Below, in pieces: positions 1,714-7,389 of a stretch of 7,389 nucleotides of DNA. The translations under genes were made by a program, and so were the position numbers. The notes below the pieces were generated by a model. It did not search any database. It had not been told where the DNA came from and saw nothing but the letters and a program-made list of their open reading frames with translations. Origin of the DNA: Gemmatimonadota bacterium (GTDB lineage: Bacteria; GCA-2686955); NCBI GenBank assembly GCA_002686955.1, contig NYZA01000267.1, positions 1 through 7,389 of the forward strand, in the 5' to 3' direction. The stretch's first letter is position 1; every line of letters begins with the position of its first letter.

Positions 1714-1741
1714 AGTATAGGAAGTGGAGGTGAAATGTCAT
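1714..1741 (-). promoter_or_regulatory. Sigma-70-type promoter for the leftward phosphodiesterase-like gene
   Basis: Read on the minus strand, a -35 element ATGACA (1736-1741, five of six consensus bases) is separated by 16 nt from a -10 element TATACT (1714-1719, five of six). The expected start site is near 1707, giving a leader of about 32 nt before the ATG at 1675. The leader has no evident Shine-Dalgarno sequence. This is one of the better consensus matches in the window, and its orientation and distance fit the gene. Confidence 0.65.
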
Positions 1742-1789
1742 CCCACTTGGGGTTTGCGCAAGAATAGCTAACGAGTTTCGCATCCCATC

Positions 1790-1889
1790 TGCACCGCACC
1801 TCCGGCCGATCGGGGCGACCCGAATCCTCGAAATAGGCCTGCTATTCCTCCGGTTTCGGGTCGCCCCGATCGACCGGATCTACGGTACA
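1790..1889. repeat. About 100-nt near-perfect palindrome (long inverted repeat)
   Basis: The core arms 1801-1824 and 1855-1878 are 24 bp long with one mismatch (C1806 against A1873), including an 18-bp perfect run at 1807-1824 / 1855-1872. Outside a 4x4 internal loop, 1790-1796 pairs with 1883-1889 with one mismatch (C1792 against A1887). Inside, 1830-1836 pairs with 1842-1848 with one mismatch (A1831 against C1847) around a 5-nt loop. All three mismatches are A-C on the plus strand and would be G-U wobbles in a minus-strand RNA. The element sits between two divergent promoters, and neither side ends in a T-tract. It could be a palindromic mobile unit (REP- or MITE-like), a structured RNA, or a cruciform or protein-binding site. 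I saw no second copy in the window. Confidence 0.85.
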
Positions 1890-1890
1890 T

Positions 1891-1920
1891 CTGGGCGCAA
1901 CCCCAGGAAGTTGTTTCTTC
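1891..1920 (+). other. Small hairpin with T-rich tail (possible weak terminator or attenuator)
   Basis: CTGGG (1891-1895) and CCCAG (1902-1906) form a perfect 5-bp stem around a 6-nt loop. It is followed by GAAGTTGTTTCTTC, which contains a short T-rich run. It begins one base beyond the long palindrome. A rightward transcript that entered through the palindrome could stop or pause here, ahead of the purN promoter. The stem is short and the T-run is interrupted, so the role is only a possibility. Confidence 0.25.
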
Positions 1921-1984
1921 GTGGGCCCTCGAGGCAGTTCCGATCGAAGGGGTCAGATCTGCGAGCAATACCGCGGCCCCCACA

Positions 1985-4701: not shown

Positions 4702-7389
4702 TCACCGCGGCGACGAGTATCCGAAGCCTGGCCGGGCCCGGCTATCCGCGACCCAGGGGCCGAGATCGGGGTTCACGTTGGCACTTCCCGCGCTCGGCAG
4801 CGCGAATCGCTCCCAGGTGTCGCCGCCGTCGGGGTATCGACCCATGCTGTAATCGGTTTCCTGGTAGCCGAAATCGAGGGCGTCCAAAACATTGGGCGTC
4901 GTTCCCGCCTCGACCAGGCCGATGCTCTCGCCGTCCCGGCCGAGCTTGAAATCGGCGTGCAGCTCGCCGCGGTCCGGCCTGCCGTCTAGCCAAAAGACCA
5001 ATAGCTCGCCCGGCTCCATCGTGAGGTCGGGCAACGGCCAGCGGTACGGCTCGTCCTCCGGATCGTCGCTTAGAAAGAGACCGTCCAGGTCGATCGGAGA
5101 GGCGGTTGGATTGAGGAGCTCTGCCCAGTCGGGCGTGTTTCCGTATTCGTCGCGTGGGCCGTTGCGATTGGTCGCCGAAAACTCGTTGATGACGAGATGA
5201 TCGGGTGGTGTCCCACGAACAAAGAAAGTTGCGGTTGCGGTATCGACCGGAGTGCCGCTCGGCTCGAAGGCGTAGAAGCGCACATCGAATCGGCCGGCCT
5301 TCTGTGGCCCTGGGAACCGGAAGAACCGGGTGCGAGAGTTGCCGGCTTCCAGCTCCAGGAAGGTCAGCTCCGCCTCGGGTCCCTCCTTGATCCGAACGCC
5401 CCCTTCACCGAAGGAGTACACCGTGATGGAGCACCTCTGCAGGCCTCGCCAGTGTGCGCGCAGCCGGAGCTCCAGATCGACCAGCCCGCCCGGATCCAGG
5501 ACCTGCGGACTGAAGCTCGCGTCGAGCGTGCCGGCCCGTGGCGCCCAGTTCCGCGCGAGCGGACTGGCTTCGAAAAGGGGGCGGGCCCGTCCGTAGCCGT
5601 CGGGCACCCGCCCGAAGGGGTGCTCCGTCGCGGGAAGAGAGAGGGAATCGGCCAACTCGAGAGCGCCCTCCTCGTCGACATAGAGGCCGATCCAGGAGCC
5701 CAAGATCACCGGTGCGACGATCTGCTTGAGCTCGTCCGGCTCAAACCCCAGTCCACCGATCGGCCAGCGAGTCGGGTCTACGGGATCGTCGCTGAGGTAG
5801 AGCGCTTCGAAATCGAGGGGTGATCGGCCTCGATAATGCAGCTCGAGCGAGGTCGGCGCCCTCCCGCCCATTCGAGCAGCGCGGCTGTTCTCGAAGAGCA
5901 GCTCATTGATCGACAGGTCGGAGGCGGCGGGAGCTCTGAGCGAATCGATCGATGCCCGCAGCACGGGATCACGTTCGGCGAGCTTGCTGAAGAGCGAGTT
6001 GATGCCGTCGCGGTATCCAGCGTTCTTCTCGCGAGTGGCCTTTGCCACGTCGATCAATCCGTCGTCGACACTGATGCCGGCAAGGGAGTCGACCTGCGTT
6101 GCGATTTGGGGCCACCAGGTGCCATCCAGAATCTCCTCGAGACGCGCCAAATAGCGACGCTGGAGTGATGGCACTTCGAGCATCAGAGTAAGCAACACAT
6201 TCCAGCCGCCACGTGGGTTCCTGTACCTCGCCGTGCCGAGGTTCGCCGGAGCCTCGTCGTCGAACAGAAGAGCGTCTACATCCCAGGGAAGCACCTTCCA
6301 AAGCCCGCCGGAGCGGTCGCGATGAAGCATGAAATTATGTCTAGCGAAATCGTCGTTCGCGACCAACACCTGGCTGGCGTAGTAGTCGATCAGCGATTCG
6401 ACATCGAGATTGCGCAGGAACCACCCCTCGCGATCGCGCGGTAAAGCGCTCTCCATATCCTGGAAGAGTGTGATCAGATCGTCCCTATAAAGATCGTCCG
6501 ACGTGGTGTTTTCGAAGCAATCGAGATATCGCTGCAGCGTCTCTTGGGTCTGCGCCCCGCAGTTCGCCTTATAGCTGCGCCCCGTTGTATCGAGCGCGAT
6601 CCGTTCGAGGTACGCCTCGTCGGGTTCCTCGATTCGGGAATAGACTCCCGCGAACTCCCCATTGATTACGAGGCGAGACATATCGATGTCGTAGGTGGGG
6701 ACGCCGACCATCTCCATGACCGTATGGCCGAGCGGCTCCTTCAGCAACGACTTGTCGGCGAAGTTGGCGACAAGATTGATGTCGTCGGGATCGAGTCCGT
6801 CGTCGCTACGGAATTTGTACGATTTCTTGGGATGCTGCAAGCTGCCATGACCACGGAAGCTGAGTGTTCCCGTGCGTTCGACCCCATCGAAGTAGAGAAT
6901 CGCGGACTTGCGGATCTTCTCAGGAAGCGCATGTTGCATCTCCAGGAGATCGACGGGGTCCAACGCGATTTCGATCTGCGGCAGCTCGCTCAGTTGACGG
7001 GCGGAGACACCGCCGATCGACGAGCCGACGCCCTTGCGGCCCAAAGCGTCGATCGGAATGACGTGGTGAGCGAGCTCTTCGCCGGCGGGCACGATCGCCC
7101 AAGGCAAATGGCGGCGCTCCTCCTGCAAGACTACGTCGTCCTGGTCGCGAACCTCGACGAGATAGCTATCGTGCAATGTGTCGGCGACATTTCGCCAGGT
7201 CAACAGCGCCCCCCCCCAAGTGGGTGTGGCACGAAGCACACCGACGGCTGGGTTCACCGGTGGGATCTCTTCGAGAGAGCGCAAGCCGATCGCGGCGAGA
7301 AGAGGCTCCCCGATCACCGGAACGAGATCGATGTCGAGTGTATCGTCGCCGGTGACCACGAGGCGCCGCAGGTCTACCGTTCGAGCCTT
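4702..7389 (-). CDS. Large CotH-kinase / lamin-tail domain protein, 5' end beyond the window
   Basis: At least 895 codons are visible and the frame stays open through the right edge, so the GTG at 7359 is probably internal and the signal peptide lies outside. Domains, counting that GTG as residue 1: a fibronectin-III-like region (about 35-115); a CotH kinase domain (about 125-375) with RGHGS (169), KKSYKF (178), NLVANFADKS (195), NGEFAGVYSRIEEPD (233), ANDDFARHN (334-342) and PWDVD (358-362); a helical linker; lamin-tail domain 1 (about 482-605); an Ig-like beta domain (about 610-715); and lamin-tail domain 2 (about 722-863), opening INEF and closing GRYPDGG. CotH proteins are atypical secreted kinases. 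Asp337 and Asp360 are 23 apart, as I recall for the B. subtilis CotH catalytic Asp228 and Asp251, so activity is plausible. The C-terminus shows no membrane segment or known sorting tail. It is probably a surface or secreted protein with an unknown target. A nine-G tract lies near its visible 5' part. Confidence 0.85.
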   Translation of the reverse strand, partial: KARTVDLRRLVVTGDDTLDIDLVPVIGEPLLAAIGLRSLEEIPPVNPAVGVLRATPTWGGALLTWRNVADTLHDSYLVEVRDQDDVVLQEERRHLPWAIVPAGEELAHHVIPIDALGRKGVGSSIGGVSARQLSELPQIEIALDPVDLLEMQHALPEKIRKSAILYFDGVERTGTLSFRGHGSLQHPKKSYKFRSDDGLDPDDINLVANFADKSLLKEPLGHTVMEMVGVPTYDIDMSRLVINGEFAGVYSRIEEPDEAYLERIALDTTGRSYKANCGAQTQETLQRYLDCFENTTSDDLYRDDLITLFQDMESALPRDREGWFLRNLDVESLIDYYASQVLVANDDFARHNFMLHRDRSGGLWKVLPWDVDALLFDDEAPANLGTARYRNPRGGWNVLLTLMLEVPSLQRRYLARLEEILDGTWWPQIATQVDSLAGISVDDGLIDVAKATREKNAGYRDGINSLFSKLAERDPVLRASIDSLRAPAASDLSINELLFENSRAARMGGRAPTSLELHYRGRSPLDFEALYLSDDPVDPTRWPIGGLGFEPDELKQIVAPVILGSWIGLYVDEEGALELADSLSLPATEHPFGRVPDGYGRARPLFEASPLARNWAPRAGTLDASFSPQVLDPGGLVDLELRLRAHWRGLQRCSITVYSFGEGGVRIKEGPEAELTFLELEAGNSRTRFFRFPGPQKAGRFDVRFYAFEPSGTPVDTATATFFVRGTPPDHLVINEFSATNRNGPRDEYGNTPDWAELLNPTASPIDLDGLFLSDDPEDEPYRWPLPDLTMEPGELLVFWLDGRPDRGELHADFKLGRDGESIGLVEAGTTPNVLDALDFGYQETDYSMGRYPDGGDTWERFALPSAGSANVNPDLGPWVADSRARPGFGYSSPR
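7209..7217. repeat. Nine-C homopolymer (nine G on the CotH coding strand)
   Basis: Nine consecutive C's on the plus strand fall inside the CotH gene, in the codons for Trp-Gly-Gly-Ala at about residues 48-51 of the visible part. This is the longest single-base run I noticed in the window. Tracts of this length can slip in replication and switch a gene on and off, but they are also prone to sequencing or assembly error. The frame is open on both sides, so the version shown is the ON form. Confidence 0.85.

Follow-up and report, generated by a model that had tools for sequence, protein, structure and literature searches.

What a long palindrome represents between two divergently transcribed genes is the question raised by the window (the whole stretch of 7,389 nt of DNA that was analysed), which is contig C267 of a 4.28-Mb source assembly in 270 contigs. 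The minus-strand neighbour of the palindrome is a gene for a phosphodiesterase-like lipoprotein and the plus-strand neighbour is purN; farther along, positions 4702-7389 encode a CotH-kinase protein that carries a lamin-tail-like domain and is cut off by the window end. In an inverted-repeat search, the palindrome was the longest repeat that the window contains (I1, with 44-nt arms that are 82% complementary; Table 1), and in comparison with 200 dinucleotide shuffles its plus strand folds at -69.8 kcal/mol (z -8.1) and its minus strand at -91.4 kcal/mol (z -11.8). An earlier reading of the sequence alone had singled out positions 1790-1889 as a palindrome far beyond chance, which is borne out by the folding of both strands far below the shuffles; the feature is real, but those limits are too short, being merely the middle of 1750-1928. 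When copies from the genome were aligned with their flanks, similarity ended sharply at GGGTYCGCGCAAGAATAACTT on both sides, with unrelated sequence beyond; because the copies match up to these edges and then diverge, the repeated unit in the window is 1750-1928, and its body folds end to end as a near full-length hairpin. The palindrome had also been placed between two divergent promoters: the genes do diverge, but a consensus match exists for the leftward promoter only (1741-1714), and no promoter clearly belonging to the element was found. It had been described as not being a normal terminator, and indeed there is no terminator inside the element itself; the sole predicted intrinsic terminator (G+C stem plus T run), at 1890-1907 plus tail, overlaps only its right end and is near the shuffled expectation.

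Table 1. Features of the repeated element in the window and of its immediate flanks.
Feature	Position	Strand	Basis or comment
Palindrome left arm	1784-1827	.	inverted repeat I1
Palindrome right arm	1852-1895	.	inverted repeat I1
Complete MITE copy, 179 bp	1750..1928	- (folding/motif strand)	TIR pairing and alignment to other copies
Left TIR, GGGTTTGCGCAAGAATAGCTA (family GGGTYCGCGCAAGAATAACTT)	1750..1770	+	family TIR pattern
Right TIR	1908..1928	-	TIR pairing, copy alignment
Left flank TTG, decayed target duplication	1747..1749	.	comparison with duplications of other copies
Right flank TCG, decayed target duplication	1929..1931	.	comparison with other copies
Conserved core CCGGAGG-AAUAG-loop-CUAUU-UCGAGGAUU	1823..1853	-	apical stem covaries, purines beside stem conserved
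Tandem 5'-GA/3'-AG internal loop, one side	1788..1789	-	opposite 1890-1891
Tandem GA loop, partner side	1890..1891	-	opposite 1788-1789
Sigma-70-like promoter match, leftward gene	1714..1741	-	consensus match only; just outside element

The element is a MITE: short, non-coding and present in high copy number, with 21-bp terminal repeats (TIRs) and 3-bp TNA duplications. The possibility of a palindromic mobile unit with further copies in the genome, raised by the sequence-only reading, was upheld by a search of the source genome with 1784-1895, which gave 43 matches at 73-100% identity (three of them the same copies read on the opposite strand), and by 183 matches to the TIR pattern at up to three mismatches, compared to 0 for a reversed control. 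The 183 TIR matches imply about 90 elements, and the copy number is underestimated because the assembly breaks at the element repeat; many contigs of the source genome stop within an element (C18, C81, C131, C150, C156, C195, C228 and C251). The 56 distinct complete copies recovered form a nested series of sizes from 57 to about 182 bp, mostly 176-182 bp, with about a dozen at 86-89 bp and a few at 57, 98-99 or 151 bp. A 3-bp flanking duplication is exact in 29 of these 56 copies and has one mismatch in 22 more, the duplicated triplet being mostly TAA, TTA or TCA and its commonest context a preceding C and a following G (C-TNA-G). There are also 40-bp elements with TNA duplications that comprise little beyond two TIRs (L054:2485, L261:1501, L273:1501 and L306:368). 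By crude gene calls, 52 of the 56 complete copies lie outside predicted genes, and the orientation of the flanking genes shows no significant bias (17, 9, 8 and 7 copies in the four arrangements). The element has thus spread to dozens of loci by TNA-duplicating insertion using its TIRs.

Whether the two strands of this element are equivalent cannot be read from the window copy, but can be read from the family. The sequence-only reading had reported that three A-C mismatches of the arms become G-U pairs on the minus strand, which is exact for the 44-nt arms (A.C at 1792/1887, 1797/1882 and 1806/1873, and zero G.T), but it does not describe all mismatches, since five others are present. The outer arms of the window copy lean the opposite way (8 G.T versus 4 A.C or C.A), and over its full length this decayed copy has no net bias, at 7:7 in a strand-neutral count. 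The accompanying warning that three mismatches could be chance is therefore right for the window copy, in which the strand bias is at chance level; in the family the bias is upheld. In 38 full copies, oriented by sequence rather than by energy and each aligned to its own reverse complement in a strand-symmetric alignment, the plus strand has 345 A.C (G.U on the minus strand) versus 113 G.T, with A.C in excess in 37 copies, G.T in none and one tie, although copies within one genome share ancestry and these counts are not independent events. In the family consensus A.C outnumbers G.T by 9 to 1, and the biased consensus pairs alternate among C-A, T-A and C-G (on the minus strand G.U, A-U and G-C), almost never T-G. 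New departures from Watson-Crick pairs of the body are 31 A.C versus 14 G.T (p 0.016), compared to 21 to 17 within the TIRs. Complementary substitutions occur in similar numbers (G>A 28, C>T 24, A>G 28, T>C 27), a symmetry that argues against a simple mutational bias of one strand. The minus strand also has 268 G.A mismatches versus 32 C.T, and the window family repeatedly has tandem 5'-GA/3'-AG pairs at positions 38, 49 and 79, the first two of which lie 11 bp, or one turn of an A-form helix, apart. The mean folding energy is -126.6 kcal/mol for the minus strand versus -95.3 kcal/mol for the plus strand, and in all 38 copies the minus strand has the better fold. Thus, the minus strand alone keeps wobble-compatible pairs and purine-purine loops. 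As for the leftward minus-strand RNA hairpin that had been suggested, minus-strand folding stands at the level of the family, in the 38 copies and in other genomes; that the folded molecule is RNA is our inference.

Base pairing of the body is maintained by compensatory change, both among the copies of the source genome and, on the modelled strand, across genomes, as the sequence-only reading had thought worth looking for. In an alignment of 38 bodies (A1), compensatory change occurs at 16 of the 44 pairs that make up the consensus fold; 96.5% of cells are paired, compared to 31-42% when partners are slid, and 60 cells are double changes versus 13.5 in shuffles, a count that overstates independence because of shared ancestry within the genome. 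In a second alignment (A2), across genomes and fitted to a covariance model of the motif strand, 33 of 44 pairs have double changes, amounting to 181 cells versus 61.5 shuffled. The observed covariation was reached by 0 of 500 shuffles in the within-genome and cross-genome sets. In Rfam, the window has no match above gathering score, the best permissive match being at E 1.2 and 17 bits.

Relatives of the element were found in more than a dozen other genomes. A search with the body's covariance model (R1) gave matches with E values of 2e-6 to 1e-20 in nine genomes, so that the search for relatives put forward by the sequence-only reading yielded full-length matches in eight of them; with eight candidates scored per genome, G062 and G283 have a minimum of eight copies apiece. 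The same core is found between other TIRs, such as AGCGCTTGCGTAAAAATAACTT in G124 and GGACCCGCGCAGAAATAACTT in G062, and in G062 nearly identical copies occupy different sites. In all 28 covariance-model relatives from eight genomes, which were found using a model of the motif strand itself, the motif strand has the better fold, and likewise in all elements of four other genomes (19/19, 5/5, 2/2 and 2/2). Among the eight genomes with full-length relatives, seven have more G.U than A.C; the exception is G124, with 16 A.C versus 10 G.U, where the motif strand is nonetheless the better folded. Tandem GA pairs occur at positions 40 and 51 in several other families. This agreement between families is the strongest independent evidence for the polarity. 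The TIR has its own distribution: in the Acidobacteria MAG G060, the same TIR was found beside a PF21804 match, with 33 TIR copies at no more than one mismatch around a different body of 157 bp, and the TIR is present in 12 of 396 sampled genomes of this phylum, in multiple copies in six. A second type of core, AAGGCG...GCAACGCC around an AGG-[hairpin]-TCGA motif (L326:1501-1639, L216-L244), seems to link the 157-bp elements of G060 and the 240-bp elements of G248, G318 and G390 to the window family. One element (L337) has an extra arm unit of 11-12 nt (GAAGATGGCCC-like), as though arms lengthened one helical turn at a time, and some 450 nt separate a TIR element from two Acido-Lenti-1 RNAs (RF01687; L274:864-909 and 1010-1055). 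The DNA of the element had no match in one genome of the same family and 58 others, it was absent from the plasmids searched, in which core matches were at chance level only, and the viral contigs searched gave no match.

Taken together, these results are probably best explained by a MITE whose minus strand functions in folded form, more likely as RNA than as single-stranded DNA. The element is a non-autonomous DNA transposon, spread to dozens of loci by insertions that duplicate 3 bp (TNA) and bounded by short conserved TIRs, with a DDE transposase supplied in trans as its probable mover. That one strand is kept foldable points to a functional nucleic acid, RNA or single-stranded DNA, and away from an inverted repeat that arose by chance, and this strand would most likely act as a short leftward RNA hairpin, in which proteins may contact the AGG-[stem-loop]-UCGAGGA core and the tandem GA pairs with their helical phasing. 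The lack of a gene-orientation bias suggests that the fold may serve the element itself, through mobilisation, stability or transcript control, rather than the neighbouring genes. It is possible, and proposed here tentatively, that the AGG-[hairpin]-UCGAGGA core with phased tandem GA pairs defines a hitherto undescribed structured class of RNA (or single-stranded DNA) carried in MITEs with several TIRs across bacterial phyla, with roles in mobilisation or host function.

G.T and tandem GA pairs form in DNA as well as in RNA and are stable in single strands of it, so the polarity data fit equally a folded strand that acts as single-stranded DNA, for example in the lagging-strand template, where a transposase or nuclease would recognise it in the manner of IS200/IS605, REP-RAYT or attC sites, and a role outside host transcripts would suit the absent gene-orientation bias; however, the known single-stranded systems make no target duplication, whereas the TIRs and 3-bp duplications of the element are typical of double-strand DDE transposition, and this alternative is rather unlikely. 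The covariation alone could arise from correction of one palindrome arm by the other, through template switching or gene conversion, in an ordinary MITE with neither strand functional, and the nested sizes of 40, 57, 87, 98, 151 and 180 bp suggest hairpin-mediated deletion in such an element. The polarity could not arise in this way: correction between DNA arms gives no reason for an excess of A.C over G.T or of G.A over C.T on one strand, nor for a polarity that keeps one direction with respect to the core in several genomes, and so an element of this kind is improbable. A regulatory site, terminator or insulator shared by the divergent phosphodiesterase-purN pair, which the sequence-only reading had also entertained, would agree with the location between divergent genes, but the element is found at dozens of loci beside unrelated genes in all four orientations and contains no T-run terminator, leaving this role scarcely credible.

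The remaining explanation concerns the source of the transposase. A MITE usually has an autonomous parent with matching TIRs, although this is not a strict requirement. No transposase bounded by matching TIRs was found among the PF01609, PF07592 and PF21804 matches of these incomplete assemblies: PF07592 (ISAzo13) candidates had no matching TIRs, no PF01609 match (IS5-type derivative) was near a matching TIR, and the unpaired TIRs of G000 and G124 led only to truncated copies, contig ends, runs of N and nested IS rather than to a long element. An IS of about 2.44 kb with a PF21804 (Transposase_29) domain, having an HTH ORF and a DDE ORF, occurs at five loci in the source genome (L133:204-2646 on C108, L049, L082, L134 and L051). 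All five abut the same TIR ACT, far oftener than random targeting predicts, and a member of this IS family also lies beside such a TIR in L195. The 20-21-bp MITE end beside the IS at all five loci would be accounted for if the MITE were a non-autonomous derivative of this IS sharing its 21-bp end. PF21804 elements in MAGs of many phyla (L135-L214), two-gene IS with a possible frameshift from the HTH ORF to the DDE ORF, however, have a conserved end TCAGA(A/C)CTCCTGA with 3-bp ANT-like duplications, whereas the MITE ends in GGGTYCGCGC with a TNA duplication, and on C108 the IS sits inside a MITE with ACT duplicated, GGGTCCACGCAAGAATA-ACT[IS]ACT-TGTCATTTGGCATCCC. This parentage is mostly refuted and very improbable, and the IS was rejected as the autonomous parent; by its ends and position, it is read as a nested insertion that apparently prefers the MITE-TIR site.

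The usual picture of a bacterial MITE is that of a passive palindrome, with stem-loops that arise incidentally from its terminal repeats. In the present MITE the two strands are distinguishable, since one of them, unlike the other, keeps G.U and G.A pairs in dozens of copies and several genomes, which makes it directly testable whether MITE RNA or single-stranded DNA matters, and the covariance model is a handle for mapping the family through bacterial genomes. IS5-superfamily elements of the IS1031 type make a 3-bp TNA target duplication and have a G-rich TIR start, both of which the window element shares; unlike them, it has no such transposase with its TIRs among PF01609 or PF07592 matches. 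REP/REPIN elements are not known to make a target duplication. The element resembles REP/REPIN-RAYT systems in its many intergenic palindromes, one-strand hairpin and probable mobiliser in trans, but it is a 179-bp unit with TIRs and 3-bp duplications, whereas REPs are 20-40-bp palindromes with GTAG/CGTC tags (PMC3733652), and it does not belong with them. Of the bcr repeats of the Bacillus cereus group, the MITE-like bcr1-3 are often transcribed in UTRs and a conserved secondary structure is described for some families (PMC3446304 and references in it); these repeats are described from one species group, and their likeness to the window element is one of description. Stem-loop transcripts are well documented for bacterial MITEs (PMC2229807; PMC10969869): such transcripts are predicted for ERIC/IRU, Correia/NEMIS, RUP and YPAL, and ERIC acts on mRNA in an orientation-dependent manner (PMC2229807). 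Like these, the window element is among non-coding units of 100-200 bp with TIRs and target duplications; unlike them as they are described, and not recognised as any of them by its sequence, it is G+C-rich with TNA rather than TA as its target, and its family has a measured polarity and one core under several TIRs in several genomes of a phylum. The MITE nature itself is thus of a known kind, and the novelty lies in the polarity measured here, in tandem GA pairs with helical phasing and in a single core common to elements with several TIRs.
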